From Gyrodactylus bullatarudis (Eukaryota > Platyhelminthes > Monogenea > Gyrodactylidea > Gyrodactylidae): DNA of 64,000 nucleotides. The notes beneath the pieces are model-generated. The model was not told where the DNA came from. It did no database searches and saw nothing but the letters and a program-made list of their open reading frames with translations. The position numbers and the translations under genes are program-made. The stretch covers positions 1-64,000 of the forward strand of contig SSNU01000265.1 of the NCBI GenBank assembly GCA_012064415.1, in the 5' to 3' direction. Shown here piece by piece: positions 3,087-30,419 of the stretch; the stretch's first letter is position 1; the number at the start of each line of letters is the position of its first letter.

Positions 3087-6000
3087 ATGAACAAGAATTT
3101 TGTTTACTTTTTCCACATGGAAAAAGGCCAGATGATCGAAGTGCCAATAAAATTTCACAATGAGAAGTAAAACATTGATTTATTCAAAATTCCTCATTTC
3201 TAGGGTTTCTAAAATATCAAAATTCATTGAGGATTATCACAAAATACCTACTTCCAGACAAATATTCATTAAGCCCGGTGGTTTCTTCCTTAATCCAGAT
3301 TGCATACTTAGTTCCCAGAATGAAGGTCTTGATGAGTCCAATCCTATTTATATTTTTACAAAAACCATCCCCGATGAGCCCCCTCTCAATCAGCCAGACC
3401 TTTTCGAATTGGAAGACTACGACATTTGTGATGAGATTAATGGCTTTTTATCATCCTTTTCCAATACACAATCTTTTATGAAAAAGTTATCTACTCTGTT
3501 GAACTTGTGTAATGAGATTAAAAAGACAAATGACCGTCTTCTTCAGGAGCAAATTACGATGGTCAATGGATTACAGGCTGCCTCGGCAAATCTAGCTGAA
3601 GTAGATCAAGATCTTGAATGTAGATTTAATTCAGCCTCGAAAGAATTAGACAAATTTGAAGAGAATGTCGTTAAGTGGGAATCGTCCTTTCGTAGATTCG
3701 ACAAGATAAAAGAGGATCTTATTAATTTACCAATATTGCCTCAGTTAAAAGACTACATCAGAGAGGAAACATCAATCGGAAAGGTCGAGGATATATACCA
3801 AGTCTTTTGTAATCTCCTCTATCCTCAGATCGTTACTTTCAACAAGGAATACTCTCTTAACGCATTTAAATCAACCACCACGAGCAATGTAGCCTCAATG
3901 AATGATTTAAGGTTCTCTCAATACGAAAAGAATTTGAATTTCACTAGGAAAAGGACAATTTCGTTTGGATTGCAAAACGATGAAGATGAGTATCCAGGGG
4001 AAACCGGGACTTCTTTTGAGTACAAGGAGAATTTAATGAATCAAACTGTCGAGACACTAGTCAAGGATATCACATACCTTCGCAAAGGAACAGACTTTCG
4101 TAAGCGCCCTGACTCTGTAATGATTCTCAATCCAACAGCCCTCTTCGAAGATGTCCCCAGTCCAAGTGATAAGAAGGAATCATTCCTCGAGTTTAATGAG
4201 AAGAAAATGAATTTTATGCGCAGTCAAATCAACTCCCTCAAGTTGAAAGTGAAAACCTACAACGATTCGAATCTACACAACTCCAAGCACAACTCTTCTT
4301 CGCAAGAATCTTCTCCCAACAGTCAAGAGGCCAGTGATCCCGATGAGAACACGTGTAGTAAATTTTATTGCGACTCGAAAAAGATGAGCACTCATCTCAG
4401 TAAAGTTGGCGAAGTTGTCTACAAAAGTGACCAGCTCCTAAGACATTCCAAGGAACTTCATTTGAGTATCACCCGGGAAATTGTGGTAATTTTTCTGATT
4501 TTTTCTTAATCAACCTCTAGGATCCCATTGATGCTGTCAAGTTGACACAGATTCAAACCCGGACCAAAAAGATTATTGAAAATTATAAGACTTTGAAAAA
4601 GTATCTCGAAGTAATGTGCAAGAAGAAACAAGCTCTTGCTGATTACATCCACGATAGACAAATGTAAGTCCCCCAAAGTCTTTGATTTTATTCTCTCAAA
4701 TATGCAGAATCTGATTCAAAACCATTTGATAGAAAGAAAATTTATTTCTTGAAAATTTACCATGTCTGAAACAAGTTGCCTATTGATGAACAATGTTCAT
4801 TGAACATTGTTTACCTAGACTATAGATAACATCAAAAATGCGTTTATTTATTAATTAATATTAATATTTATCTATTCATTTATTCATTTCTTACGTTAGT
4901 TGGCTACAAAAGATTCAATCGGAAATAACAGACATTGACAAGACCATTCAGCGTTGCTTTCGCAGGATGAAAAATATCACCACATTTGGAATTATATTCG
5001 AGCACATGGAAAATTCCCCAGAGATTTATATCAAGTGAGTTTTTGATTTCGAAAGAACTTTTTCTTGATACATTTGAGCATTCGTTAACAAGAATCTAAT
5101 CTCGATTCTAAACAAGGTCATGAGTCATATACACTATCTTTATTACTCAAATTGTACTATTCTCATACTACTATTAAAATAAAATGCATAATACAGAGAC
5201 AGGCTGTAAGAAAAAAATTTTTGTTGCACAAAAAAGCTTCTTCTAATAGTGTGTAAAAATGTTATGAATGAATTTCCTCACTCCTACCCTATTCATTCTA
5301 CAGAATGAATCTTGTATATTAATAACATATATACATTGGTATATGTGAAGGTATACTAAAATAAGAATAGATACAAAGAATTTTATTCCTTTGTTATCAT
5401 GTTATTTGGTTGGTGGATTCTAGCCAATGAAATTTGACCAATCTCTGTCTGTCTCTTTCTCTATCAAATCATTATTATAAACTTGAGTGTCATTATTAGG
5501 CATAAAGGCTACATTGTAAAATTATAACAGACAATAAAATACACTAGAATCATGTAAAGTGTACTTTTCAATTCATGATTGGCAGAATTGAATCAAATTG
5601 TATTTACTCTAAACTATACTTTGAACCAAATTGTTACTTTGTCTATGAAATAATTACGATAGAAATATTCACGTAAATTATCAAATACGTCCGAAAATCC
5701 ACATAAAATCATAATTGGAAAAGTAGAAAAAGAGGATATATTAACACCAAATGTACATTTCTCAAAGGTTCATCAGTAGCGTCTCTTTGATAACACTGGT
5801 AATAAAAAAAATATTTTACGAACTTTTATCGAGATATAAAAATTCCTATGTAAATTTTCATCCTGATTCAGAATCTATGCTCAGAATTTTCCCTATTCTA
5901 CAAGGTTTGCGTATAATTTTTGAAAATGTAAAAGAGCGAAATTAGTAAAAACAGGCATCACAAATGTTGAATTTTAAAATAGGAGAACATGTTTTTCCAT

Positions 6001-9000: not shown

Positions 9001-12000
9001 AAATTTCAGGGTTCCTTAAATCCAATGTAAAAAGTAACCAAAATTGTAATTTGGCCTACCATTTATTTTCAAAACAGGAAAAAGGGACCATAAATGCAAT
9101 AAATAGATAAATAGATTGCTATATTCAGAGTCTACAAATGGTCATCTCCTAAATTAATAGTTGGTTTTTTGAAAAAAGTGCATTTTTGTTATTAGCGTCT
9201 TCTGAAATGTTCAACTATAGGTACAATAAAATCGAGCAGAAATTTTCTCATCTTTGCATAGATTTTAGTCGTATAGCCTCTTGGAGTGAAAACTTTTTCA
9301 GGCGATGCTATCTAAGAAATATTAGCAAAATTGCGGTCTAAAAATGTCTTCTCCCAATGAATAATCCAACATCATCAAATGATAAATAAAATGATCGTAA
9401 CAAACCGATATTTATAAAAGTATACTGATAATATTCCATTGGATAATGCATATAATAGCAACAAATGTACAGTATTTTCTAATTAACAACTCCTACTTCG
9501 TTACGATTAATTAATCATAATTCAACTATAATTAAACCAGGAGAGATATATTCAACATTTCCCCATACTTAATTTTTCCTGCTAGACACAAATTTTCTTT
9601 CATCGCAACAGGATAAATTTCACGTGTCTAACTTGGACCCTCATTTGGTAGAATGCTCCATCTTTTTAATGTTTTCCACTCCAAATCTACATTTTTTACA
9701 CTCTTGAATTTATTTTATTCTAATCTTAAAATTCATATACAATAGAGATCTCGAGATAAACATGACTTACAGGGTTTTTGCCTTTCTATACAGATGAATA
9801 TTAACAAGATAGAAATATAAAATCTTCTTTGGGATTAATTTTTTGCCAATTTTTCCTTTAATCGTTTAGTTTTTGTTCTGTCTTCAAAGTCAAATTTGAA
9901 AATCTTCTTATTTCTTCTAAACTTTCATTTTTGTGCCTTCAAGTTTCCAAAGCGTAAAAACTCCTCTTTAGGAAATTATGCCTCTGCAACACCTATTCAT
10001 GGTTTTTATTAATTACAGATGCATCGTCGAAATTGTCCGCCGTCGTGAGTTCGATATGAAATGGCACATTTGGCAAAACTACTATAATTCCGAGGCAAAG
10101 AAGATTCAGACCCAGGAAATCAACATGAGGAAACAATTTCTCTCCTCATCCAATGTATCCCATCCTCTCATAATGAAATGCTTTGGATTCTTGTCAAACA
10201 TCAAAATCTCTGCCTCAAAAGTTTGTCTCCCTAATCACTATGCATTTCTCTAAAGCATTCCTAACTAAAGAGCAATTAATGTCTCAAAATAAAGAGCATT
10301 TGATGATTGACCTTTGGAAGCATAAAACGCGTAATAGCTTAATTGATTTTGATTAGGGAGTGGAAAAAGAGATAATATACAACTTTTCCAAACTTAATCA
10401 TAAAAAAACACTTAGCACTCCTTCCTATGAGACTACACTATTTTAGGAAACATGGGATTTTTGTTTATATCAGAAAATTTTATTCTTCGAGAATTAATTT
10501 TTTTCGGTTGAAACCTGAAAATCTGATTAAAGCATAGAACATTGATGGGAGTAATTAAAATTTTGTTTTACCCTAGTCCTAACGTAGAAATTTAATTTTC
10601 AAGAAATTTTAGTCAATTCTTGAATTCGCCCCAAAATTTCATCACGAGAAAGGACCAAGTCACTACTTTTGTGTGAATGTGACATGATTCTATTGATTTT
10701 GGTGAATTAACCCCCTCTGGGAGATTTGCTTTTTTAGTTAAAAAATTCACAGAGTCTTATTCTCCCTCTAATGATAATAATTATTCCTTGAGAAATAATA
10801 AATATAACCCTAACTATTTACTTTCTATTTATAACTTTATCCATACTAAATTTGAATTATCTGATTGTGATGACTTGACCAATCTTAAATTGGTCATGTC
10901 TCACATCAGGCTTAAAATCGATTACTCTAAGTCTTTGCTTTATTCTTATCTTCATTAACCAGTTGATTTTCGAATTTCTTGCAGACTCTAGTTCTCAGGC
11001 TCTACTATTGCTCAAATTTCTACAACTCGAGAGCTTTTACATTATTTTATAACTTGACATTTTATCATTTTATAATTGTACAGATCAATCTATCCATTTT
11101 ATTTATTTTATTTCTATTTATACAAGCAGATTTCGTTATAATTTGTATTTATATTCTCAATTCAATATAAGATTTTCTTCTAACAAAAAAATTTCATCAA
11201 TTTTTTCAAACTTCAGATTGGTAACTACTAACTGTTAAGTGTGAATTAGACATTCTTTCATTATGGGTCTGATTACACTTTGAATACTTTTTTATTTTCC
11301 AAGTCTCATATTATTAACTTTATGTTGTTTTCATGCTCTGAACAAGTTGCAATTCTCCTTGCACTTAAAAAGTAACTATAAATCTTGAAATTTTCCATAT
11401 ATTTAGGCCAAATAACCCGTGAAAAACATCGAATCATCTAAATTAAGTTTAGCGTGTCAGCTTTCAAAATAACACTTTGAGTATTGATTCTATATTCTAT
11501 TGATTTTATCTACTCTTTCCTCATACAAGATTAGAGGTGTTGATGTGAGTCAACAACATTCACCGAGTAATGCTACCTGAATCACTTGTAAAAGTCAAGA
11601 TAACCCATCCATACACGACAAGAAGATAGAATAATATGTTTTTTATTTTTAGAAGAAAAAGGCTACCCGTTTCAACAATACAGAATCATCACAGACAACT
11701 TCTCAAATTCGTATTATCAGACGCAATCGTGGTCCAGCCACTAGTCAAACTGACGAATCATACGATAATAATTCTATTAGCAAAGCAATCAATATTACTT
11801 CAATAAAAAAGTCTTTCAGTCATGTTAATATACCCTCGTGTCGGAGTGAAACGAACCTCGACCAAATTGTAAACTTTGAGAACAGCCCTGGCACCAAAAA
11901 GGTTAGCTAAATAATCCAAAGCTAGTTGACATGAATCTGAAAATTTATTATTTCTCCAAAAAACTCAATATCTTCCTCCGGATAGTCCACGAAATTTGGA

Positions 12001-15000
12001 GCATTTTCGAAATAATAACTATGACAAATTTTTGTCAGTTTAAATTTTTCTCAGAATTATTCCATTACTTCTTTCATCAACTATTTCTTGGTTTATTTAA
12101 AACACCTTCGCGTCCTTCAGATAAATTCGTTTTAGTGAATCGAAAATCTCGTCATGACCGTACGAGTTGTGGGAGCTGTAACGGCATGACTAAATTCTTA
12201 CAATGACCTAATTTCTTTGTTAATCTTCGATATGTATTAAATTAAATCTCTTATCAGAAAAAAAACATGTCATCATATCCAGTATTACTACCAATAATAA
12301 TTTATTAGTAATACCAATAAGAATAGATAAATGATTATACGTTTTAGCATGCAACCTTTGTCTTTTGCAATTCTCAACATAATCAATTTTTATCGAGACT
12401 TTTTTTTGAAATATTGCATACAAAATAATGAATTATGATTATTTATTATTTGAACGGTTATATTGCCAAACATCATCGAGTATATTGTTACTCGATTCTA
12501 GATAAGCTTCGGGAAATTCCTTATACTATGAATTCCTGCAAAAATTATTTCTACGAATTTGCAGAAATTTAAGAATTTTAAACAGAAAATTTTTATATGC
12601 TCACATTTCGGATGGTCTTTGGAATCTAAGAATTCATTTTGTGCATCCAGTGAACAATTTGTAATATCTCAACAAATAGTGCCTATCTGATAAGTGATTG
12701 CATTTCAATCATTTTCGATAATATCATTTCCATTTTTAAGAGACGAAGGTCTCAAAACAGTGAATCCTGTAATTGATTGCTTTGGACGACAGATTTTCTC
12801 GTCATTTAACATCTTTTTAGCTCGCCAGAAATGGTGTTATAACAGGAAAATATCAAACATTAATTTAATAAACAAAATAACACTGATACTTGAGTCAGAG
12901 AAGAAGATTTTCTGGTAATTACAGTAACTCATTGATAGATTTTTCAAAATTTCGCATTTCTTACTAAAAATACCTGAAAAATTTCTATGAGTTAAAATCA
13001 TTTGAAATATATTTAGAATCAAACTTTTTCGCAGAATCAGAAATTTTCCAAAGCTTAATTCTAGACTCATAAGGAAGGTTGAAGAACAAGCAAAAAATGA
13101 ATGACAAACGTTTTTTATTTCGCCGGATCTCTTCAGACTTAATCCCTGACAGAGATTTATATAATGTTACAAAGCATGTTTTTCTGCGTTTACATTGGTT
13201 CGGAACTGCTCAGAGAGAGAGCGATATGAATTTGCAATTCTGTTTCCAGGTGGTTTCACTTTTGTTTCTTCTTCATACTTGGGCCCCCTTTACACTTTCA
13301 CATCCGTCCCTCTCTGAGCAATTTCGAACCAATGAAAGGACAGAAAAACATGCATTGCAAGTTACAATTTGTAACACTATATAAATGTCAGTCCGGGATT
13401 AAGTCTGAAGAGACCCGGCGAAATAAAACGTTGATCACTTATTTTTGCTTGTTCTTCAACATTCCTTATGAGTCTGGAATCGAGTAAAAATAATTATTTA
13501 TAATGTTTTATTCAACTTCAGTTTGGATACATTACCAACGAGGGTCGTACAGATATCAGTCCTGTCCTCGAAATGGACAGTGACCTGGATGCCCCTAAAG
13601 AAGAGTGAGTTGTGATTTTATTCTAGTTGACCCTTATATATATGTGATGAGTATAGCTTCAAAAAATTATACCTTAAAATTCTTATTTGAGATCTTTAAA
13701 AAATTTGAAAAATAGTATTTCTCTTTTTTAAGGTATTATTTCAATACTTTATCGCGAATTTACCAAAAAAATCTTGCAAAAACTACTTACAAATATACCG
13801 AATAAAAAATAATGTTCAAATTAAATTAGAATATCGCGATAATTTCATAACTATCATCTTAGAGGATATAATATCTTGGAAGAAATCAGGCAACTTATGT
13901 CTTCCATAGACTATATATTCATATATTAGTAGAGGGGTCACAATATTTTAGTCAGTTCTTCTTTATATACTTTGTTTAGGAAGTTCACTGTTTTTTAATT
14001 TATTTCCTAATCATCTGACCTATCTGATGAAAATTTTGTTCGATCCACTGTTCAAGAGAAAAATATTTGTTTTTCTTCAGATGTCTTGAAAGTCAGATAA
14101 ATACAGATATGGTTTATAAAGTTTATATCGCATCGATCTTGTCAGGTGATCTATATTGATATTTTCTTTTCTCTTTTAATATATTTTAAAATCATCTGAT
14201 GAAATCTGACCAAAAACTAGTCACTAAATTAATAGATAAAGATTTCTAATAAGCTTGAATTTCATCATGTCACTGTTTTTCTTCTCCAGGATTAACTCAA
14301 GCTCTGAAAAGAACGATGTTAACAATCAAAGTCGGCCTGCGTCCATGTTTTTTGAGGATGCTAACATTACTCTCGACAACCTACCCAATTTAAGCAATCT
14401 TCCCTCGTTAACGCGAAACGATTTGAAATGGCTGAGTAATCGGCTCTCGCACAGTTTCAACGTCCTCCTAAATGAATCAACAAAACACGAACTTTGCTTC
14501 AGTAGCATGAATGAACCTGTATTGTCTACCACTTCATTAGCTTCTTCGAATGGCTGTGGATCTGTCCTCGTCAAGGTTCATCCACAGTCGAGACGTAAAA
14601 AGACTCTATCTGAGTGCAATACATCCTCAACAGCACCTAGTTCTCGTCTCTTCCACGAGGATGCCATCAACATTTTCGATAAGAACGGAAAACGGACCTC
14701 TATGCACGAAGAGATAAAATCTAAAGAAGCATCTCATCTAGGCTCCAACGCTGATATGAAATCTGATGAAAGTAAAAAGTAAGTCCTGCACTCTTGTCCC
14801 CAGATAAAATGTCCAAAATGAACTACCAGAAATCTATTTAAATGTCTTTTGATTTCAGAGACCAATTGTTCGATATAAGCCTACAAAATGAACAATCGCC
14901 TGGAGTTTGTGAACCCTTAAAGATTGATTGCGAGACACAAGTCGAACTTTTGGAGACTTTCGACACCGTCATACAAACAGAATCATCTGGAATTGATGTT

Positions 15001-18000
15001 AGTTTTCCCATAATCAATTTAAAAATCAAAATTCATGTTGAAAAATCCCTTTCTATTAAATCTTACATTGAAACCTATGTAATTTTTATGCAGTAAAGTC
15101 TGCCAGATGGTCTGGTCAATAGGTTTCAATTAGAAATAACTATGTATGTTTTAATTTTCAGTTTTAAACCAATCGGAATTCTTAAAACTATTCTCTATTT
15201 CCTTCTTTACGGATTTTTTATAAAAAAAAGCTGAAAAAATAATAATTAGCTAGTCTGAAAACGAATAGTCACTATTTTTCTGTCAAATAAACATGAAGAC
15301 ATTTACATAAATTTGGCATCATTAAACGTAACTTTGATCATTCTGTGATCGATTAATGACACTAGACAGCTTATTAGTTTATCCCAAATTATTTTTATTT
15401 TAAATTTGTATAGAGAAATAAAACTTCGAGTTAGCACTTGTTTTAACGTTTGTATCTCAGTACCTAAACGTCTGGAGGAGGTTTTGGAAAAAGATTGGTT
15501 ATAGTCCAATTAAATTTACTTTTACCAGTTTTTATTAAATTTTCCTTCTAGTCATTGAGTTAATCCTTGAGTATTCATTCCAGAAAAGTCAGCAGACATC
15601 ACCAACACAGAAAAAGAGTTTTGTAAACAATGCTCCGGGCTCTCTTTCCCATTTCACCAGTGAAAGTGATTTCATGATGCTGGTCCACCCCATGGATCTA
15701 CCCAATACACCAACTGTGTCAATTTTCGGTGAGACCCTTGATTTACAATCATCAAATACCCCTACTCCACTTGGTCCCAAGCGTTCTTCCTCACAAAGTA
15801 AACTTTTTCCAAATCATAGCCAAACAGCCTCTACTGTTAGTAACAGTCAATCACGAAAGGATGATGTACTCATGCAGTCCAGCTTCTACTCCACCCACAC
15901 CTATTTCACTGATAACGAATTCATGCAGTATGATCTTCAGTTGAATGGGCGTAAGATTAAGTTTATTATCACTAATCATGATTGATTAAAGTCACAAGTT
16001 TCTAATAGATCTAATTCTAATTTATGTCTCTTTTAGAGATAGATTACAGAGTCTAGCAAAATTTTTAATACTTATTGAGATAATGACAGTATGTTCAATG
16101 AAAAATGTTCATCAGATCATAATAAAAGGATTCGGAAATTATTCTAGGGTGTAGATTTCGAATTTGTGTTTTATCAATACATTTGGTCATTTTTTCAAAT
16201 TTCAAAAAATTCCCTTTATTTTGAACTTTGAGCTGAAAATGATTTGAATAGGGTGGGGGAACATGATTATCATTCAAATTTAGAGAAAAACTTCTCTTGA
16301 CAATTCTGCCACTTTTAAATCAATAAAAAATTCAAGTTCCAAGTTCAAAAATATGAAAATTTCGTGTCAAATCAAAATTTGAAAAATGATCATTTTTCCT
16401 CTTGAAGATTTTTCCTTTATTTGATCTTAATCCCAAAAAATCTCAATTATATTTGAGCTGAAAAAAATTCCTGATGAAGACAAACTCATAGATTCCCAAC
16501 TTCATACCAACAATTTTTTTTTGAATTGAAAACATTATATTGAAATTAAATCATGATACAAAAAATTAATTATAAATTCAAGGTGATGTGAGGTTTTAAT
16601 AAAGTTCAAACTGATCTTGATCCCCAAGCTAGTGCTGGCAGCACGCCAACCCAATGCACTTCACCAGAATCCGGTTCAACGACCACTTTTAATATCAGCT
16701 GTTCAAAAAGGGAACTAGGAACAGATATCAGTTGATTCTTCAGTTCAAACGTTTATCTCACAGATACAAGGTTAAATTTTATTGAACATTAAAGGTCTCA
16801 TTATCAGAGGACTTATTCAGTCAAATGAAGATTAGAGTAAAGAAGAGATTTTGTTTAGTCAAGCTTAGACCTTAGGTGACATATAATTAGGGTGGAAAAT
16901 AAATAAAATATCGCAAAAATATCTTAAAAATGGCAAACAAATCGCAATTTTATTTTTGAAAATGGAAAAATGGGGGGAAATTTTAGTCCAGTGCGTTAGC
17001 ATACGAAATACAAGTTTCTTTTTTGAATGTTTAATTCTTATCATGAAAATACATTATTTTTGAAAAATATCTTCCAACATAAGCTGAAATCGGCTTCCAA
17101 CTCAACAAAAGATTGTACTCCATAGTACTAATATTTTCATCTTCCATTTTTACATTTTTTGAATTTTTTTTCGGTTTCGCTGGCTTTTCAAGTATCCTTT
17201 TTAAAGGATCCTCTTTAAATCGAGATTCTGCACGATTTCTATTCCTTTCCTTAATGAAGTTTTATAATTCTTCATTTTTTATTCAATAGTTTTTAATATC
17301 TTCAACCCATTTTGTAGTGAACGGAGTTGGAGGCCTTTTCAAATCTGAGAGGAAATCTCTGCGTGATTTATTTTTAATGGTGCCTTAACAGAGCCTAGGT
17401 AAATTAATAGGAGAAGATGGGAAACCGAGACAAAAGAGGACACAAAAGGATTAAAAAAGGGGGAAAAAATGGAAACTTGAGATTAAAATCGCAAAATTAT
17501 CTAGGAAACTAAAAGGTGTAGAGAATTAATTTTTTGATATTTTTTTAATAAGTACCGTTGATTATGATATCAAAAATCGAAAAAATCGCAAATTTTCCAC
17601 CCTACATATAATAGACCTCAAGTCAAAAAGGTTATCACAATCCTTTAAGGAAAACTTAATTTCTAGATAATTGTAATATTTGAGAAGAAAATGATATGAG
17701 GGGTTTCTTAAATATAGTAATTCTTGTTGGCAACTAGCCTTGGAAGCCTCGTTCTCCAAGTTCTTTGGGTTTTTATCCATTTTTACCAATAATTATTTAA
17801 AACCAACCACTCTTCTTCGCTCATTCTGTCAGATTTGCACTGTAACATCATAAAATTAAGAGATTTTACTTGATTTTTATTAGGATTGAAACTGTTTAAA
17901 GGGTTTATCGTTCTAAATCAAACTCTTGTTGATAAACATGAATCTGGTCTGTGATTGCTGACAAGGATAACTCGAAATAGAACAAGATCGAAATTAAAAA

Positions 18001-21000
18001 TCCAATTATTTCACCTATCAACTTTCTCAACACGATACTTAGTTTATTTTAATTCCTTATCAAGGTGTTTCATCAAACGAGAAAAGCCCATCAACCATTC
18101 AGGATCTTGTCAATGTGCGTATAAAAGAAATCATCTCCCATTTGAAAGTTGCTCCATTATCAAACAATGATTCGATAGAGCCAAATCATCTCGATGATAT
18201 TGTAAAACAAGTAACTGATCAACTTGAAACTGTAAGTCTTTGATGAATAAAATTTTCTCCAAGTCACACTTTTCTACTTTAATATTTGGCTATCATATTT
18301 AGAAATTATCCAAGTATACATCTTTAGTTGAAATTTACGCGCATTTGGTTCTCTTTTGGACTCGTTAGTATGCCACAACCTAGGACCTCCCGCATTGTAG
18401 TCCAATAGTGCTGCACTATGACATTACAGTTAGTTAGAAAACTTCAGGGCTACGCCAGAGCAAATGTTCATTAACCCTTTCGGTGCCGATGAACATATAT
18501 GTCCATTTTCCAATTTTTTTGAGCCTTCATAAATCTACCAGTTTCTGGATCAATTAAAGTTTAAATTGAAGTCCACAATGTTAACTTGTATTGGTAATAT
18601 TTTTAGCCAAATAACTTGGTATTTTCATAGCTAAATTTTGGTTTTTATAAAAATTGTGAAATAGTCTCGGCACCGAAAGGGTTAATAAGACGAACCTGTG
18701 AGATTTATTACCCAAGCACCTAGAATATCTCATTTTTAGGGATTTGAGGTTATTTCGAAAGTATCAAGCAGGGTAAATGTTCAAAAATAGCATTTTTCTC
18801 AAATCAAACTTCAATTTCACTGTTTTTCTAATTGAATAGTATTCGGAGAAAAAACAATCTGCCTCACCCTAGTAATTAGGAATCTCGTGATGTCACTTGA
18901 AAATTAGGAATCATCATTAAGATCTATCAAAAAAGGGCGGTCAAGTAGAAATTAAAAATGAGCGATAATTAATTTTTGAACATTATCGAGAATTGAATGA
19001 TGACCCACGAATTTCTTCGTCTATTCGTGATCCTGAAACTTTTAATCACTCTCTCACTTTGAAATCCAAAAAAATTTGGCACCAATTTGAAATTGTCCAA
19101 AAATAAAACAACTGATGAAAATAAGTTTTTTTAATTAAAATTAAAGTTGTCTGTTTCGAAAACGGACCCAATTCATGATGCCTCTTGTTAAACTACTCTG
19201 AAAAATTATTACTAGGGCAATAATTCTATCATTCTGGATATGATGAATAGAGTTCCAATACAAGAAAACTTTGCCATTCAAACATGAGATGCCACTACAT
19301 CGGATCTAGTGATAGATTATTGATAGATTTATTCTTGCTTTTTTCATAAAATATACACTAATTATTACTTTTTAATTTTTTAGCTTCTAGTTGATCTTAA
19401 TAACGAAGAATTACAAAAATCAATATCAGGCGAACATTCACCCCTGCCACAAGAGTTAGAATCAACCAACAAGAATCCTACTGACATTTCTGAAGAGCAA
19501 AATGATTCTAATAGTGAGTTCTAGCTAGTGGTGAGAGTTTTAGTTTTAAGTTACATGTTCTAAGCCATAAAGAGTTTTTTGTAGATTTCATCTCAGCCTG
19601 ATTTATATTGATGATAGAAGGCGTGTAAATCTATTGTAAGCAGTCTAGACGATTTGTCACATTCAGGGTTTAAGATAATAGCTAGTTAATAAGAGCTTTC
19701 ACAGCCCTAATATAGGCTCTTAGTATACAATGTTTTACAATGCAAATTAATGGAAAACTATTGTCCAAAAGCTCTCAATCAACAAGAAACACCTTGATGT
19801 TTATAAATTGATCTTTGAAAATTATTTCAGACTCTGTGGGAGATCCGACTGAGAATAATCCAAGGATAGTTCTTGCTCAATCAAAAGTCTTCAGTCAAGA
19901 TATTGTGCCATTAGAATTAGAACCCCCACCAGCCAGTACAGAAGCAGCAGCAGTAGTCAACAAGTCTTTCACCACAGCCCAAGTTAAAAACATTTTATTT
20001 GATAATCTTTCAGTTAAGCTTAGCAAGTGAGTTTAATAAAATTGGATTTTAATGTATATTTTTGTTTCTCTGTCAAGTAGTCATCGGATATTTAGAGGTT
20101 TTCGATAGAAATAGTCGATCCGTAAGACTTATTTCAAAAATACTATATTGAAAATGATTAGAAGAAAGATATTTTAGCTTCTATCATGAGAAAAATGGCC
20201 GAAATTAAATTGAGCAAATCATTTTTACTATTGCAACCAGTTCATAAATAGACTTAGGACCATATGTTTCATAAATCATTCGAATTCTCTTGAAGAGCCT
20301 ATTCAGATTCTGACCCAGACTAAAAGTCGAAAATTGGCTAAATCCATCTCTACTGGATATTTATGACTATCGGCACCAAAAGGGTTAAGCAGCTTTTGCT
20401 AAGCAAATGCATCAAGCATAAACTTGAGAAGAAAAAAAATTTTGAATTCCAGTCAAAATATGTATGTACAGCTATTCTCGATTAATTTGGCAATTTATGA
20501 TTTTTACAAAAATCTCATATTTTTTGGTAACCGACTCAAAAGGAAAATTTAGATTAAGGTTAGAATAAAAACATTTAGATCAAAATAGATTGGTCTCACA
20601 CAGTATTTCGAATACATGTCGTACTCTTCTTCTGGTGTGAGATTTTTCCAAAAACTTATAATCTTGTATGTCCAATCAACACATTAAACCAATCAGATTT
20701 CTCCTCAACTTTAATCAATAAATCCTGACCAGCGATTTCCAATATCTATATCCTACTTAATACATAGACTTCTTACGTCGTAAGTCTATAATATGATCTG
20801 GATTATCAGCCCAGTTTTTAGCTAATGCTGACTTGTCTACCTGTACTTTTTCCATAGCCTTTTTGTGTTCTTTACACCTAAAAATAATGTTAATGATTTT
20901 CCCTAATTGAATCCGACACATTTTTCAGCTTTACTCCTTCGGACACAATAATTATAGTGCCTGCTCAGACAATTTCACCAAAAGATCCCATTCTCAACCC

Positions 21001-24000
21001 TCTAATGACCTCATCTCGGGTCTCCAATCTCTCCATGATTGATTCAATGGAATCTTCCTCTTCCTTCGATGAAGCCTCATCCACTTCAACATCGCTTTCT
21101 TCTGTCAAGAATCGAGTATGTTTAATTTTAGGTTTAATATTACTTTAAAGCTGTGCAAAGAATTTTGTGTTCACTGATCACAGTTTGACAAAAGAAAAAC
21201 AATCTAAGCATTAGTGTAGTACAAAATTTTATTTTATTCCTAAAATAATAAAAAAATTTCATTTAATTTTTCCCTTTCTCGTAGTAAAATTCATTGAAAA
21301 ATCTTGGCGCGTGTTCAAAAATTGTCATTTTCAATCAACATTTTCTATACCAGAACAAACTCGAAAACGTATGGTCTTATAGGAAAAAAATTCTTAGTTT
21401 TTGATAATCTCCAAAATGAAATTAAGGCTGGGTAAAGTTGGCCTACAATACTAAGCATGCATTCTTCTTAGATAGTATTGTTACCGTAACCAGTATAACT
21501 TTAGTGAATCAATTTTCAATCAACAAGCCCTTGTTATTGATAGATACACTTGAAAAATCCCTCATATAGAAAATCCTATATTATTGGGACTGATGGTTTT
21601 TTCAACTTACCCCAACCATATTCTTTCATTCAAATTTTCAACCTAGCGATTCCCCGTTTCACATGATTCTTCCTTATTCGAAATCTGATGAATTCACCCT
21701 TTCAAGATATATATTCTGCATTACGAAAAGCAAATACTATGTAGTTGAAAACATGGCATACTCAAAAAAATACTTTAGATTTTCTCAAATGTTGCAGGAT
21801 CCATCGTTTCACTCTGAAATTATCGGGACATTTTTTATGTCACTATGAATTTCCTCATTAACGTATTTTCTTAGAAGTAATAAAAAGATTCTGAAACAAC
21901 AAAAATTCTAAAAGCATTTCTAAGCTAGTAATGCCAAAAAAATAAAGCCCATATTCTGATTTAGCGTCCCTTAATGTATAGTGGTCGACAAAATGAATTT
22001 ATTCACTTAAAATTGCTTCTAGCTCATTTATAAAATATACCTTCAAGATGTAAAATATACCATTAAAAAGGAAATTTCTTACTCTTCTAGATATGATTAC
22101 TCCCGAACTTATTGGTTCATTGATATTCTCAAAAATACAAATTTACGATTTTTCATTGAATTAGAAAACGACAAAACATATTTGTTCACTTTTATTTTGT
22201 AAAATCTCCTTTTCCTTCTACTACTCTTAAACATCTTTTTGACATAGAGCAATATAAATTAGCTAAAGTCTCTTCGGGAATTAATCTCCACTCTTCCTCA
22301 ATCTTCTTGATAAGTTCTTGCCTGTTTAAAAATACTCTTCCCTGAGAGTAAACTTTTTGAGATAAAATTCCCCACAAGTTCTCAATAGGGTTCAGGTCAG
22401 GGCATCGAGCAGGCCATGGCAATACCGATATTCCATTCTCTTGAAACCATGTTTTTGTTGATAAAGAACGATGACACGGTGCATTATCTTTTTGAAAAAT
22501 TATTTGGGATTTTTCCATTTCTTCTTTAAACGGTAACAATTGATCTTCTAAAAATTTCTGGTATGTTTTCGAATTAAGTCTTTCTTCTATGAAAACAAGG
22601 TTACCAGTTCCTTCTTTTGTGATGTACCCCCATACCATGACACTGCCTCCACCAAATCCTCGCTTTATCTTGGTAGGTTTGGAAAGAGATTTGTCCAACG
22701 AGAGTTCATCCAAATTGAACTTTTTTTCGTCCGAGAATATTGTTTTACTCCAATCGTAGTTTTGAACAATTTTTTCATAAGCCCAGCAATACCTTATTTC
22801 TTTATCCGTGGTACTCAGATTAGGGACTATTTTAGGTTTACCCCAATAGATGTTAGGATTATTTTTTATGCAGCGTTGAACAGTTCTGACAGAGGTATTC
22901 AGATTCAATTCAGCTTTAATTTTGGAAGCTGTCGTCTTCTTCCGAATAGCTAAATAAGAAATTTTTTTCATGAGACAATTAGGTATTGCTCTCTTTCGGC
23001 CGCATTTTTTCGATTTTTTCTCTTGTTTTTTTTTGGAAAATAAATAATTTATCGTCCCGCATGCACATCCAACAGTTTTTGCAATTTTTCGATTGCTCAG
23101 ACCTTCATTTTTAAGTTTATTGACAACATTTTTGTTATAATCAGTGAGTCTTGAATATTTCGGTTTCTTACCAGTCATCCTGTAGATTCTAGAAATGATC
23201 AAGTTCAAATTTTAAAATGAATACCTACCAGTTTATCTGACAAAAATTCTGTAAAAAAACTATAAAATTAAGTTATAAACTAAAGTTTAAAAGTGAACAA
23301 ATATGTTTTGTCGTTTTCTAATTCAATGAAAAATCGTAAATTTGTATTTTTGAAAATATCAATGAACCAATAAGTTCAGGAGTAATCATATCTAGAAGAG
23401 TAAGAAATTTCCTTTTTAATGGTATATTTTACATCTTGAAGGTATATTTTATAAATGAGCTAGAAGCAATTTCAAGTGAATAAATTCATTTTGTCGACCA
23501 CTATAGTATGAAAACTCGGGTGACTTTCTTACGGTTCATGAAGAAACCCACCCTACTATTATTTAATGAATTACCAAACTCATGCTAACATATGAAATTT
23601 AGATTCAAATGGAAACTGAAAAATTTACTATGTTCCAGCAGTATATTTGTGATAAAGCTGGTCACTTTTGATCAACTACATACGATGTAATTTATCGTAA
23701 TAATCTATATCTCACTTTCTTTCTATTAGGAAATTTGGCGAGTTCTGTCTGATGATGGTAACATCTATATTCTCGATAGGAAATGCTACAAAGATCTTGA
23801 CATACCCAACATAATGCACAGAAAGGCTAAAACGGGCCTTAAAAAATCATCTTATTCAGGTAAAACTATTTATTAACTTGCCCCTCACATTTAAAGAATT
23901 TTTTCTTTTTTGATTTTCGATATATAATCATGTAAATTTGATTTATTTTTATTGAAGCATGTATTAATAGTGACTTCGTAGTAAGAATTCATTAAATACT

Positions 24001-27000
24001 GCGTGACAATTTGAAAAACATTTAGGATTTTCAACCATGAATACCATAAAAGAATAAGCCTTTTCAACCCATGTTTCAACAAAAAATAATGCTTAGCCCT
24101 TCAGTTTCTTGAACTGAAAAATACTTGTGATACTTTTATCAAATTTATTAAACTACAAAAATATGTTGCTAACCAAACTTACTTCTGCAATCGCCTGCTC
24201 GGTATTCATCTCATAGTTTAGAAGATCACTAGTTTTAGAGCAGAAAATTCCAATTTTAACCTCTATTATCATGTAAATGATAATTTGGCTTTCTTTAAAA
24301 GCGTCTGCGTAATTATTTTGGTGAGATTTTCTAATTTTTGGCATGAGAAAATAATAATTTGGGACATGAAGGGTTGGAAATGATATTTCTATTGGAAAAT
24401 ATTGTAGTAAAATGAGCTTTAAATTTTTCCATCCCAATTTTTGATAAATTCCCTTCCAACTACATTTACCAAATAATCATTGGTTTAAAATTAGACGAAA
24501 TAGTCAGATTTTTCTCATGTGATCTCAAGAATTATATCATCATTGTTTTTTAATCGAATTTTGATCTCTTGATCATTTTTACTGCTCGAAAACACATTTT
24601 TTCCTTGTTGATTTGTGATCACCCTCCTCAAGAAAAATAAAATGCGGGCTTACTCAGAATTTGAACACCATAATCTTGATTTTATATTTACATTGATGAA
24701 AAAATTGAGTTATCATCATTCATTCAAATCAAGATCCTCAAATTTTACATTTATATAGTTATACATGCTTTCCTACAAAGACTTTGAATAAACTATGGAA
24801 TTTGAATTTTATTTGTTGAGACGATACTCGACTGCAATTGATCTGTGCCACTATGTCAGAAAAGCATAAAACAGGAATAATTTCAAGAACCTGATCGTCT
24901 TCAACCCTTAAAGTGAATTTTATTCAATCTCTCTTGTCTTGTTCCTATTGAATGGGTGGTAAAAGTATTTTCTTAGGATTAGATGAATTACAATGAGTTG
25001 ATAGAATGACATGTGATAAAAATATAACCCAGTGGTACTTTGAGAATTGTCCTTACTCCAATTTGAAATGTAACTGAATTCACCTCCACTATCACACTCT
25101 GTAAAAGAGCATGTAGAATCTACATTGTAGATTCAATACACTAAATGTAGCACATGAAATATTTCACCTTTGTCTCTTTCTATCAATTAGATAATTTTCA
25201 AATTACTATATAGTATCATTTGTATCATGGGCTACATCATAATACTATATTTCATATTGCTTTCATTTCTATGGGTAATCGAGTAATTGCATCACTAAAC
25301 TTTTGATGTCATCATGATAAAAATTATTAGTTTCTGATTTCGAAAGCTGCTTAAATGTGTAAAACAGTGTAATGTAACAGGGTTTATTCAGTCCGGTTAC
25401 TTTCAATATTCTCTGCCTTTTCACAGTCCTCAATCATCAATTCACTAGAATATACGTTAACTCAGTTTGGGTTCCTATAACACCCATCTTCTGTCCAAAT
25501 TGTAGAATTGTTACGTTTCCATCAGATTTATATTTCGTATGTCAAGGATCGATCCTCTTTGATTTCGGGCTTCGATAAAAAATGATTAATTTTTTCTTAC
25601 CTTTCCTAGGTACTAAAGATTGCAAACTTTTGATTTCTAGCCTTGATCAAAAACTTGACCGCCTTCTTTAAAAGAATTTGAACTGGTTGCAATATAAACA
25701 ATGAGATTTTTCTCATGATAAAAGCTAGAATATTGTATAAAGTGTAGTAGAGTAAAGCATCCCATATGAAAGGAATTTCATGTCAGAAAGTTGACTCGTA
25801 ATAACCTTTATTCATGAACAGACGCTATTTTTTTGAAAAAATTGAAAAATCTTCATGATTGCAAAAGAGTCTCTTCTTGTTTACCAAAGATTTTAGTCAA
25901 TAAAAGTGAACTGTATCAATTTACTGTAGAATGAAAAGATGTAAAATTGTTTTTTTAATGAATCAATCCAACCCTTGAATGTGTGATGTGCAAGAAAATC
26001 GCATATTCGGTAAATTGGGTTATTTTTCAATGCAATGTAAAAATCGATGAAAGTAAAGAATTTTAAAAATTTCTTATACAATCATTACAAATGATGTAAT
26101 TATAATGATCTTTACAAAGATTTTTATCGCACCTTTCCTGTCTTTTTCTTTCGGAAGCATCAAAAGAGTAAAAAACTTTTCGAAAATTATACTTCTGTAA
26201 ATTATTTTCATAGGCAAATCTTTATTTTTTAACACCTAAAAATCAGGAAAAAGATGGAGTTGTAGATCAATTTCATTGGTGAATTACTATGACTGTCATC
26301 TTTATTCTGATTTTTAGGTGTTAAAAAAGATTCGTCAATGAAAATATTTTACAGAAGTATAATTTTCGAAAGGTTTTTTACTCTTAATGCTTCAAGGACT
26401 ACTAAAAAAGTGCTCAGGTCATTTCTGTCTTTCTATCTCATTCATATTTTTCTCTATTTAAAGTTAAAGCATTGCAAGTCGGGTTTTCAATTTTTACTGA
26501 ATAACTCGAAAACTCTAATGTAAAACTCTTTATTTGGAAATTTATTCTTAAACTGAAGTATTTTTGATTTCTAAATGGTTCTTGGTCAAATTCATGCTGT
26601 GATTCTATAGAGATTTTTTCCCATATTTAGATGATAACTTCCAATCAGTATCTTTTCTCCTGCGTGAAAGTTGCCACGTCCTAGCCCAATTTGTCTCCCA
26701 TGTCAAGATGATCAGTCAGAAGAATAACAAATTAGGCTTCCCTAAAAACCTCGTCATTTATCGAGTGAAAGCAGTGCCTCTTGGATCGATTTCGTCACCA
26801 CCAACGCCTACTCCTACTCTCCGACATTCACCAGGCAAGTTCTGCTTACCATAACAGTCATATTTCTCTTGAAATTATTACTCTTTCTTTTATTTTTATA
26901 CAGTCAAAACACTTCGAGAATATGCCACACAAACTACCCCAATGTCGAATTGTGAGTTTTCCAAAAAGCATTCTATCTCTTTCAACATTCTTGTTGTATT

Positions 27001-30000
27001 TTGTAAAGTTCTATGAATTTCATGATATAAAGCTAGTTGATATGAAGATGGGAATTTACTATTTTTACAAAAAACTCACTACTTTTCTTCGGATAGTCGG
27101 AAAGAGAAATCCTTTTTCATTCACATTGGTTGTTTATTTGAATTTTGAATAAGCCGCATTTCCTATTTTTAAGCTCAATATTTTTGTTGTTAGATATTTG
27201 ACGTCTACCTTGGTAAGATTATTAGGATTTAGCCATCGAATCTCAGAGATTTTTACGTCATCATTTTGGAAAATCAAACCATCTGCCATTTTCTAATTCT
27301 CTAATTTCTGTCGAATAGAATTTTACTATTCCACCTATCCATAGGCTAGAGATGTAACGAATTTTGACCTTTTATTAAATCAAAGTTTTCTGTGGAATTT
27401 CCTCATATAATTTTGATAACATTAAGGTGTGAGATCAAAAATAATTGAAAATTCGTTTGCAATCCCATGCGTACTCATGAATTTTCTCTAAATTCTCTTG
27501 GAGGCATAGTGGAATAACAAAATTTAACAGAAATGATCCCAACATGATTCTAATACTATTTTCATTGAAAAAACACTTGAAGCTTTATCAGAAAAAAATA
27601 TATTCGAAATTTTAGTGAAAACGTAGTAAAAATTCATTGAAAATCTGGCGGCATTTTTAAAAAATTCTGATTTTTAAACTTGAACAGCATTTTGATACTT
27701 GATCTTGTATAAAATAATTTTAGAAGTCATAGTATTGTCGTTCGAGTAGGTTTTCAAAATAGGTTGAAAAAATTGTTACATCTCTACTATAGGCTCATAT
27801 CACTCACGCATTCAAGAGGAAATTATGTTCTTAAATAAAAGAGATATTTTATACTTATATTATTATGCACCTACTTTATAGTAGATGCTCGAATATATTT
27901 TATCGATAGTAATGCTTTTCCATTCTATTGTTATTTCCATGTTGAATGTGCTTCTTACCCCCCCCCTCCATTCCCCTTATTCCTCCTTTTTCATAATTCA
28001 TTTTTCAGCTATGCAAGCCAAAGAATTGATTGATTACATCCAGAGGAAAAAGAATGATCCAGACTCCCTAAGCAATCCAATCGCCATCTTCTCCCTGTTG
28101 CCCTCAAGTTTGAATTTAACTCTTAAATTGTAAGTGACTCCCTTGGAAGTAGTTTATCTCTATATTCCATTGCCTCGTTTGTCTAATTCACATTTCAGGA
28201 TTCTTTTTTGAGATGTAGATTGATTATTCATTACTATGAATGCATCAATTTAACAATAAACAAATTAAGCCTAAAGTTTATATATGTGAAAAAAGATGAA
28301 AATATATAAAAATCTTCATGATTACTAAAGAATCTCTTCTAGTTTACCCAAGATTTTTGATTTTTTTACAAACAGCCCTCGTTGTTTGTCCTTTCTTGAT
28401 CCTATTTAGAGGTTGTATTTAATAAATACTTTGTCTGAAGAGACCCGGCGAAATATAACGTTTATCACTCACATATACGCTTGTTGTTCTCTAACCTTGC
28501 GTATATGAGTTTAAAATCTAACAATAATATTCTTGATGAGGTTCGACAATATATTATTCTACAAATACTATTTGAGATATTTGATATTTAGTATTTGGAA
28601 ATTCTGAAATATTGAAATCTAAAGCTATTCGATATTCTGATGTGAATCTATGAATTTTACAAAAATATCAATTTTTATCAGGAATTGGAATTTATTTATT
28701 AAAGATGTCCAGATCATGATGCCTACTTTTACAGGTAGAAGAACAAAAGATATGGTCATTTTCAAATTTCGATTTGGTGCCAAAATCTTACTTTTTTGAA
28801 ATTCAAACTGAAAATTTTTATTGATTGGTAATCAATGATAAGAAAGTGGTGGAACGGCCAAAAGAATTTTTTTCTAGGATCAAGATTCATTTACACTAAA
28901 TCTAGTGATCTAAATGATTAACCTTATTATCGTTTGGCAGTTGAATTTCGATTTCTTGATCATTTCCCTCTCGTGAAAATAAATAAAATTTCGAATCGGT
29001 CAAAAATATTTATGGTTTCCTTGTCTGATTCTGATCCTTAGATCGTTCAAAAGTTTTAAAAATGAAATGTAGGCATGATGATTCGGATTTCTAGTAATCT
29101 TTAATATATATTCGAATTCTTGAGATCTCAAAAAGAAAAGTTTAAACTGATATCAGTACCTACTTTGTAGTAGTTACATTTTCCAAAAAGGAAAATTAGA
29201 GAGGAGAGTGGTCACTTTCTGACAGTTATTACCGAGGTACAGGTATCTGAAAAATCATAGATTCCTAACCTCAGATAACCAACTCTTATTTTTATTAAAA
29301 AATTTTAGTTAAATCTCTAGTTTATTATTCTTATTTCAAATAACTCAGCTTCCCTCTCAAGATGAAAATTAATTCAGCATTCATTTTTTCAGTTTCGAAT
29401 CAGGTGATGTGGTTGCATTCATTCCTATTTCAATCAATGTTTCGGTGGAGAATCTCACACAATCTGCTTCCTCTGTAAGTTGATTATCTTTTGAAAAATT
29501 CTTTTGGATAAATAAGAATTTGAATAAACTTCATTGTCATGTGTTTTTCAAGTTTAACCCTTTTGTACTTTATTCCCGTCTCATCATATTACTACTCCTG
29601 TATAAATAGTAGATATTATTGTTGCTAGCAAAAGATAAGCCGGGGTTCTCACATAGTTTCTAAACTACCTTCCACCTACTTGAGAAAGATAAACCATAAT
29701 CCAAACTCTTTGAATTCATATGTAGAAACAAAAATCATCTTTGATAATCTTAATAGTCCAACCTTTTTTGTTAGAAAGAAAATCTGTATTTAATAAAATA
29801 AAATATAAATAATGATAACTAATATACAATAAATTGTTCGTACAATAGCATATTCTATTAAAGGGAATCTTCAATATCAAACATCTTAAAGAACAAAATG
29901 CTTAGCTAAATAAATATCTGAAACCTGGAATACTTTTGATGATCGAGTAGAGGTCTTGAAAAGTTTTCACATTTAGATGAAATAATTCAGAATAAGAATT

Positions 30001-30419
30001 CGATCCGTGTTTTTTGAAAATGATATAACTAGTTGAATTTCTCTCTAGAAGTTTTCAAATGCTGTTCATGAAATTTGGCGAATGCTTTCTAACGATGAGA
30101 ATGTGTACCTTCTCGACAAGGATGACTATGCAATCTTGGATGTCCACAACTTAAAGTTACTCTCTGCTAAAAGGACCAATGCTTCTATGTGTAAGAGCGC
30201 AATATTTATTCCCTAACCATAAAATGTTTTCAATGTTTTATTCTTTTAGATCAAGGAATTGAATCTTTTGGAATTATACCCATTAATCAGAGGAGATACC
30301 CCTTCATTGTAGCCAGATTCTTGGCCTTTGAACCGTGTCTAATAACAAAGGAGGGCAATAGATATCATTTACCCAAAGACTTTAAATTCTTCAAAGTCAG
30401 AGCCCAACCTCTCATTTAA
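3087..30419 (+). CDS. RB1CC1: RB1CC1/FIP200 homologue, autophagy-initiation scaffold, 21 exons, with two Claw domains
   Basis: Scaffold of the ULK1/ATG13 autophagy-initiation complex, recognised by alignment from memory to animal FIP200. Exons: 3087-3166, 3204-4485, 4521-4663, 4900-5034, 10019-10220, 11653-11901, 13522-13604, 14290-14778, 14859-14997, 15584-15950, 18065-18231, 19384-19513, 19831-20026, 20929-21115, 23730-23859, 26631-26834, 26904-26951, 28009-28129, 29393-29474, 30049-30190, 30250-30419. They sum to 4,746 nt (1,581 aa; human 1,594). Residues 1-80 match the ubiquitin-like start (SNPIYIF against human TNPIFLF); ~100-614 match the helical N-terminal domain (CIVEIVRRREF against AVVEVVRRKMF). 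Residues ~615-1155 are Ser/Thr/Asn-rich with no heptads. Two Claw domains follow. The start ATG at 3,087 is chosen because exon 1 supplies the first beta-strand, missing if one starts at 3,160. Introns 1 and 2 are 37 and 35 bp; intron 16 is GC-AG. Exons 5-12 were placed by splice signals and phase alone. Confidence 0.85.
5035..10018. other. FIP200 intron 4 (4,984 bp), repeat-filled
   Basis: No supported gene. Positions ~5,880-6,120 are a diverged copy of 34,330-34,530, and ~6,290-6,600 resemble 27,430-27,740. Positions ~7,265-7,295 carry a piggyBac-type MITE end (CACTTTAAGGGTTA). Positions 8,720-9,060 are a palindromic MITE listed separately. The remainder is plain AT-rich sequence. Confidence 0.6.
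8720..9060. repeat. Palindromic MITE
   Basis: Sequence from 8,720 (AGGCCAAAATACAATTTTGG) folds back on sequence ending near 9,060 (CCAAAATTGTAATTTGGCCT). An inner pair (GGTTAGTCCTCCCTA at ~8,870 against TAGGGAGGACTAACC at ~8,935) also matches in inverted orientation. It is a nearly complete hairpin of about 340 bp with no coding capacity, as expected for a non-autonomous DNA transposon. Confidence 0.75.
10221..11652. other. FIP200 intron 5 with a remnant ORF repeat
   Basis: Positions 10,790-10,958 (+) keep an open stretch whose translation, YLLSIYNFIHTKFELSD and onwards, clearly matches the minus-strand translation at 56,190-56,340 (LLSTYNMIENKFKISE). This is therefore a coding remnant of a dispersed element I cannot name. 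The rest of the intron is AT-rich with no further call. Confidence 0.55.
11902..13521. other. FIP200 intron 6
   Basis: AT-rich intron without a supported gene. Its 3' third is occupied by the palindromic MITE at 13,057-13,480. Short open frames here lack any family resemblance. Confidence 0.5.
13057..13480. repeat. Palindromic MITE of the AGACCCGGCGAAATA family
   Basis: Left arm from ~13,057 (ATTCTAGACTCATAAGGAAG) is the reverse complement of the right arm ending ~13,480 (TTATGAGTCTGGAAT). Further inward, TTATTTCGCCGGATCTCTTC pairs with GAAGAGACCCGGCGAAATAA. The two halves fold into a ~420-bp hairpin. Partial copies of the right arm occur at 28,433-28,560 and 58,122-58,240, with a scrap near 975. 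No coding capacity. Confidence 0.8.
15951..18064. other. FIP200 intron 10
   Basis: A 2.1-kb AT-rich intron. Around 16,615-16,730 composition is less AT-biased, and a ~33-codon open stretch exists on the minus strand, but without recognisable family or splice context. Nothing else is supported. Confidence 0.5.
18232..19383. other. FIP200 intron 11 with nested repeats
   Basis: Holds the piggyBac-type MITE at 18,475-18,681. Flanking sequence at 18,420-18,470 and 18,686-18,726 matches 63,545-63,660 in order, so the MITE sits inside an older dispersed repeat. No gene is seen. Confidence 0.6.
18475..18681. mobile_element. piggyBac-type MITE, 207 bp
   Basis: Flanked on both sides by TTAA (18,471-18,474 and 18,682-18,685). 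Its ends are inverted repeats: CCCTTTCGGTGCCGA at the left and TCGGCACCGAAAGGG at the right. TTAA target duplication and CCC/GGG termini are hallmarks of piggyBac elements. It has no transposase, so it is non-autonomous. A right-end fragment (TCGGCACCAAAAGGGTTAA) lies at ~20,370. The dispersed repeat at 63.5 kb resembles the site without the insertion. Confidence 0.8.
20027..20928. other. FIP200 intron 13
   Basis: AT-rich intron. Apart from the piggyBac-type MITE end near 20,370, nothing is recognised. Confidence 0.4.
21979..23503 (-). mobile_element. Tc1-type transposon with long IR/DR inverted repeats, apparently intact
   Basis: Inserted in FIP200 intron 14, with TA on each side (21,977-21,978 and 23,504-23,505). 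Terminal inverted repeats are 216 bp (21,979-22,194 and 23,288-23,503); I count three mismatches. Each repeat holds two direct repeats, an outer one near 21,986-22,008 and an inner one near 22,169-22,194, both built on CGACAAAA and TTCACTT. That is the IR/DR arrangement known from Tc1 relatives such as Sleeping Beauty. The near-identical ends and open transposase frame point to recent insertion. It lies antisense to the host gene. Confidence 0.92.
22192..23178 (-). CDS. Tc1 family transposase, DD34E, full-length
   Basis: A 328-aa cut-and-paste transposase. The ATG at 23,176-23,178 is chosen; upstream in-frame codons offer only TTG. The N-terminal half has paired helix-turn-helix DNA-binding segments (EGLSNRKIAKTVGCACGTIN, then ASKIKAELNLNTSVRTVQR) with a basic linker between them. 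The catalytic triad is visible: Asp in TIFSDEKKF, Asp in IFQKDNAPCH and Glu in NPIENLWG. There are 34 residues between the second Asp and the Glu, the Tc1 spacing, and GGGSVMVWG is the usual glycine-rich motif. No stop or frameshift is present and the length is normal for Tc1. The stop codon lies at the inner edge of the inverted repeat. Confidence 0.95.
   Translation of the reverse strand: MTGKKPKYSRLTDYNKNVVNKLKNEGLSNRKIAKTVGCACGTINYLFSKKKQEKKSKKCGRKRAIPNCLMKKISYLAIRKKTTASKIKAELNLNTSVRTVQRCIKNNPNIYWGKPKIVPNLSTTDKEIRYCWAYEKIVQNYDWSKTIFSDEKKFNLDELSLDKSLSKPTKIKRGFGGGSVMVWGYITKEGTGNLVFIEERLNSKTYQKFLEDQLLPFKEEMEKSQIIFQKDNAPCHRSLSTKTWFQENGISVLPWPARCPDLNPIENLWGILSQKVYSQGRVFLNRQELIKKIEEEWRLIPEETLANLYCSMSKRCLRVVEGKGDFTK
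23860..26630. other. FIP200 intron 15
   Basis: A 2.77-kb AT-rich intron. Positions ~24,905-25,045 carry piggyBac-type MITE-like sequence (AACCCTTAAAGT and AACCCAGTGGTACTTT, compare 40,950-41,454). A hairpin MITE occupies 26,152-26,397. No gene is supported. Confidence 0.5.
26152..26397. repeat. Hairpin MITE, about 245 bp
   Basis: Left arm (AAGCATCAAAAGAGTAAAAA, then TTAACACCTAAAAATCAG) pairs with the right arm (CTGATTTTTAGGTGTTAA, then TTTTTTACTCTTAATGCTT) around a ~60-bp loop. It lies just before FIP200 exon 16. No target-site duplication is apparent and there is no coding capacity. Confidence 0.65.
26952..28008. other. FIP200 intron 17
   Basis: Positions ~27,430-27,740 are a second copy of repeat sequence found at ~6,290-6,600 (shared CATTGAAAATCTGGCGGC and CATTTTGATACTTGATCTT). 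A C-rich tract at ~27,960 is the polypyrimidine run ahead of exon 18. No gene is seen. Confidence 0.5.
28130..29392. other. FIP200 intron 18
   Basis: Contains a partial copy of the AGACCCGGCGAAATA MITE family at ~28,433-28,560. The rest is AT-rich without further call. Confidence 0.5.
29475..30048. other. FIP200 intron 19
   Basis: A 574-bp AT-rich intron between the two central exons of claw 2. Nothing recognisable inside. Confidence 0.5.

Follow-up and report, generated by a model that had tools for sequence, protein, structure and literature searches.

The Claw domain of FIP200 is the docking point at which cargo receptors summon the kinase complex that starts autophagy, and one publication places it at the C-terminus of the protein. 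The human Claw dimerises through its beta0 strand and the coiled coil that precedes it (PMC6477179), with the coiled coil spanning residues 790-1500, or 710 residues (PMC7447430). A CCPG1 peptide is added as a strand beside beta4, one of its hydrophobic residues entering a pocket formed by C1565, A1567, F1574, V1576, and F1582, while K1569 and R1573 contact acidic or phosphorylated peptide residues; p62 binding is reported to be nearly lost in R1573D, F1574A, and R1584A (PMC6477179, PMC7946963). Here, we describe a FIP200 (RB1CC1) homologue from the flatworm Gyrodactylus bullatarudis, encoded in a 64,000-nucleotide stretch of contig SSNU01000265.1 (the window), whose predicted C-terminus carries two Claw-related modules in series: claw 1, encoded by exons 13-16, and claw 2, encoded by exons 18-21.

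Two Claw-derived modules in one predicted protein

On our re-derived model, the gene has 21 exons (3087-30419, + strand) and a product of 1581 residues. An earlier sequence-only reading of this DNA had proposed a FIP200 homologue ending in two tandem Claws, and its coordinates, exon numbers, and intron phases all proved correct. Two Claw-derived modules are very probably present. With a Claw profile made without any window sequence, the scores were 48.5 bits for claw 2 and 32.9 bits for claw 1, and the best shuffle reached 4.6; by this measure claw 1 is homologous to known Claws, and it has a hydrophobic residue at 27 of 28 core positions. The Pfam family ATG11 (PF10377), which spans the C-terminal part of ATG11 in yeasts and plants and of FIP200 in animals, matched claw 2 alone at 32.1 bits, over its curated cut-off of 22, and the full protein at residues 1446-1578 at 27.6 bits. 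Because claw 1 gave no PF10377 match, with or without its Ser-rich insert, we term it Claw-derived rather than a certified Claw. By itself, claw 1 bears a weak resemblance to the human claw; among the weak matches of claw 2 in the Protein Data Bank (PDB), eight of nine were RB1CC1 claws (E 0.21-0.34).

The two modules are identical at 34 of 121 positions and share internal intron phases 2, 0, 1. Each has an alternating, beta0-like strand ahead of its first Phe (LSVKLSNF in claw 1, LNLTLKFF in claw 2), and 67 residues separate the end of claw 1 from the start of claw 2. The two modules in series, each related to known Claws, are confirmed as sequences in one open frame. Both would be expected to take the OB-like Claw fold within a single chain, and the core pattern of claw 1 bears on its fold indirectly. 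The exons are as follows:

3087..5034, + strand: exons 1-4, residues 1-546; the FIP200 N-terminal scaffold, which starts ubiquitin-like and takes in most of the ATG17-like region
10019..19513, + strand: exons 5-12, residues 547-1155; remainder of the ATG17-like region, followed by a middle rich in Ser, Asn, and Thr
19831..20026, + strand: exon 13, claw 1 lead-in and beta0-like strand; entry phase 1, exit phase 2
20929..21115, + strand: exon 14, first strand of claw 1, NFTPSDTIIIVP, and Ser-rich insert; exit phase 0
23730..23859, + strand: exon 15, claw 1 EIWRVLSDDGNIYIL block; exit phase 1
26631..26834, + strand: exon 16, closing strands of claw 1 as far as YRVKAVPL, then a Pro/Thr tail; GC donor CAG|GCAAGT
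26904..26951, + strand: exon 17, linker exon of 16 residues; phase 1-1
28009..28129, + strand: exon 18, claw 2 lead-in and beta0-like strand; exit phase 2, the boundary falling on the residue equivalent to that of exon 13
29393..29474, + strand: exon 19, first strand of claw 2, FESGDVVAFIP, within the PF10377 match; exit phase 0
30049..30190, + strand: exon 20, claw 2 EIWRMLSNDENVYLL block; exit phase 1
30250..30419, + strand: exon 21, closing strands of claw 2, NRYHLPKDFKFFKVRAQPLI, then stop

Two of the introns amid these exons hold repeats. Intron 14 contains a Tc1/IS630-like transposon (21977..23505, - strand) with a transposase open reading frame (ORF) at 22192-23211 on the - strand (DDE_3, 63.3 bits) and 218-nt inverted repeats that are 99% alike, apparently a recent insertion. 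Nested inverted repeats in intron 15 (26164-26385), with 63-nt arms 90% complementary and 32-nt arms 94% complementary, are possibly a small non-autonomous element.

Origin of the tandem and related genomes

An old internal tandem duplication of the Claw exon set, followed by asymmetric divergence, is the best reading of how the two modules arose. The internal exon-module duplication proposed earlier is supported; intron-phase matching alone we rejected as proof. Between the claws, dN and dS were 0.74 and 1.67 by NG86 and 0.95 and 0.88 by YN00. A direct protein search of the genome (an assembly of 77.3 Mb in 471 contigs) returned eight matches, one in each of exons 14-21, with no further claw copy outside them; exon 13, of which the query held only a few residues, went unmatched. 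The PF10377 profile found nothing in the genome because the claw exons are split.

The FIP200 relatives that we found were all flukes: Paragonimus westermani (P0001) and, with P0001 as query, P. skrjabini miyazakii (P0002), Dicrocoelium dendriticum (P0003), and Clonorchis sinensis (P0004). P0001 is similar in layout along its length, with 26% identity to the window protein. Each of the two models with a complete claw, P0001 and P0003, has only one, with both window claws matching the same place; as we read the alignment, P0002 and P0004 lack a complete claw. A homologue search with a two-row alignment gave no match and missed P0001 as well, so its silence is uninformative. The fluke claws have a Ser-rich insert after the first strand, like claw 1, and closing strands like those of claw 2.

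Predicted receptor pockets and a possible mechanism

We compared both modules with the human pocket in an alignment whose gap placement around 1568-1570 is uncertain. The residues of claw 2 at human positions 1565, 1567, 1574, 1576, and 1582 are C, I, Y, L, and F, with aromatics at 1574 and 1582, and at 1569, 1573, and 1584 the module has basic K, R, and K; its departures are F1529 to L, Y1564 to P, and K1568 to T. With most of the human pocket kept, claw 2 looks able to read receptor peptides like those bound by the human Claw. In claw 1, the same five positions hold M, S, L, F, and I, and the basic residues at 1569, 1573, and 1584 are K, K, and R; the module is without the human aromatics (F1574 to L, F1582 to I, F1529 to I), so that its predicted pocket is an aliphatic one that keeps the charges. 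Given the loss of these aromatics, the earlier suggestion that the scaffold could bind two receptors at once is unproven.

We propose that claw 2 would be the receptor-reading Claw, its basic and hydrophobic pocket being mostly kept, and that claw 1, which keeps the fold core, the beta0-like strand, and the basic charges around its aliphatic pocket, would serve as its dimer partner, in a lineage that seems to have no long FIP200 coiled coil. The 67-residue link is long enough to make pairing within one chain feasible, and claw 1 may perhaps add a second, different peptide specificity. We regard the picture as a whole, a flatworm FIP200 whose Claw exon set was long ago duplicated in tandem and whose claws pair in one chain, as evenly balanced, and the pseudo-dimer mechanism taken separately as tentative and somewhat doubtful. 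An extended version, in which an asymmetric intramolecular claw dimer replaces the coiled-coil-driven one of other animals, claw 2 reads classical phospho-FIR/LIR and claw 1 another peptide class, and pairs of receptors are thereby recognised, is speculative and would be unlikely.

Splicing and alternative explanations

Under the predicted splicing, exons 13-21 form one open frame with matching phases, in keeping with the joined claws described earlier, and both claws are probably made together as one protein. Intron 16 (26835-26903, 69 bases) is GC-AG, the sole non-GT donor among 20, and its donor agrees with the GC-AG consensus. If the whole of claw 1 is joined to claw 2, the GC donor at 26835 must be used; left unused, it would keep intron 16 in the transcript, and the protein would end after claw 1 with SPGKFCLP. 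Since the four skips and swaps tested are in frame (skipping of exons 13-17, which leaves claw 2 only, and three swaps between matching exons) and the tandem depends on the GC donor, we take seriously, while thinking it rather unlikely, that alternative splicing picks between claws, giving a claw-1-ending form with intron 16 kept, a claw-2-only form with exons 13-17 skipped, or a 14-to-20 swap with a fluke-like single claw. The GC donor score of 6.1, however, is mid-range for the gene (2.2-9.9), and no swap is needed for a good claw: claw 2 alone reaches 32.1 bits with Pfam ATG11, whereas the exon-14-to-20 hybrid reaches 20.8 (24.5 without the insert). We demoted a hybrid of exons 14 and 20-21 as the true claw on that comparison.

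That claw 1 is a decaying duplicate, translated as a spacer with no receptor role, strikes us as quite unlikely. Claw 1 is further from D. dendriticum P0003 (31 of 117 residues identical) than claw 2 is (45 of 119), it has no Pfam match and has L and I in place of F1574 and F1582, its exon 15 has a near-zero codon score (0.005), and its intron 14 harbours the transposon whose ends are 99% alike. Weighing against decay, the 765 coding bases of exons 13-17 are stop-free, against 14 and 21 stops in the remaining two frames; the splice sites are good; and the core hydrophobics are kept at 27 of 28 positions although synonymous sites have diverged by roughly one substitution each or more. The low score of exon 15 is also undercut by exon 21 of claw 2, which scores lower still (-0.051). 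With a codon score trained on the remaining exons of the gene, exons 13-17 reach 0.124 per codon, a value that none of 2000 non-exonic pieces matched once their stops were dropped; since scores of 0.042 and 0.09 were reached in the wrong frames, much of this signal is base composition. Two transcription units, one for a FIP200 that stops after claw 1 and one for a short protein with claw 2, the latter driven by a promoter of its own or trans-spliced to a spliced leader at exon 17 or 18, would account for the stop 15 bases beyond exon 16, the in-frame ATG codon that opens exon 18, and the AATAAA at 27834 and ATTAAA at 27374 upstream of exon 18. Yet the + strand of the window has roughly two AATAAA per kb (the scan counted 133), so the single one in this 1.2 kb is at or below chance level, and the exon 16-17-18 phases fit cis-splicing; we consider this arrangement improbable. 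For an artefact, whether an assembly haplotype duplicate or chance similarity, we found no supporting point: the modules are too different for an assembly duplicate, the profile scores are far above shuffles, and there are no further genomic copies, making this the least credible explanation by far.

N-terminal scaffold and central region

The N-terminal scaffold domain is, from its matches, homologous to that of human RB1CC1. Against the human RB1CC1 structure 8soi, the N-terminus gave E 5.6e-8 over two stretches (residues 7-159, 13.3 bits; residues 472-587, 19.7 bits), and this match together with the C-terminal PF10377 match upholds the assignment to FIP200. ATG17_like (PF04108) scored 34.1 bits, under its cut-off of 43 (E 2.7e-8; best stretch residues 360-590); the fluke P0003, at 42.8 bits, is likewise slightly under it.

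Human FIP200 has a long central coiled coil that the window gene and its four fluke relatives seem to be without. In the window protein, the middle (11653-19513) is Ser/Thr/Asn-rich by composition. A crude scan with no human control put the longest Pro-free heptad stretch beyond residue 600 of this protein at no more than 41 residues, and at no more than 30 in P0001-P0004; the same scan marks longer stretches in the N-terminal domain. A coiled-coil-less flatworm FIP200 may be of broader interest than the second claw.

Other features of the assembly and the window

Among autophagy genes, ATG8 and ATG101 were matched in the assembly. Receptor-type domains were found as PB1 at three places, ZZ at six, and a sub-threshold NBR1-type match at one, none of them sharing a contig. 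ATG13 had no match in an exon-wise search that had no positive control and is too blunt to call absence, of ATG13 or of p62/NBR1.

Flatworms and echinoderms share a mitochondrial code with distinctive readings of AAA, TGA, and AGA/AGG. COX1 of the assembly has AAA at the Asn of the DRNF motif, along with 15 in-frame TGA codons and 11 AGA/AGG codons; this flatworm-type code, taken with the fluke relatives, indicates a rhabditophoran flatworm.

Elsewhere in the window, a WDHD1-like ORF (47499-48275, - strand) matches WD40_WDHD1_1st at 208.6 bits. An ORF at 57205-58008 (+ strand) has a GIY-YIG-like domain at 21.9 bits, just under the Pfam cut-off of 22.6, and is perhaps part of a Penelope-like element. 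An ORF at 53115-53492 (+ strand) resembles an ISXO2-type transposase in its sequence but has no Pfam match at E 0.01.

Comparison with known systems

Judged on its sequence, the architecture is real and unusual, and the proposed mechanism is plausible. Searches of an open-access library on second or duplicated claws, flatworm FIP200, and Atg11/FIP200 domain architecture turned up no two-claw FIP200 in titles, abstract openings, or passages; as most subscription papers lie outside that library, this is weak evidence of novelty. A natural tandem would separate the needs of Claw folding and pairing from those of peptide reading and would test the role of claw dimerisation in avidity; two claws, if true, would alter how the scaffold recognises material marked for destruction. 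The human FIP200/RB1CC1 Claw (PDB 6DCE, 6GMA, 7CZG, and 7D0E) is C-terminal and has a beta0-like lead-in, and the same holds for the modules described here. It also resembles claw 2 in its closing strands and in most of its pocket residues, but human FIP200 has one Claw that pairs between chains, whereas the window protein has two Claw-related modules.
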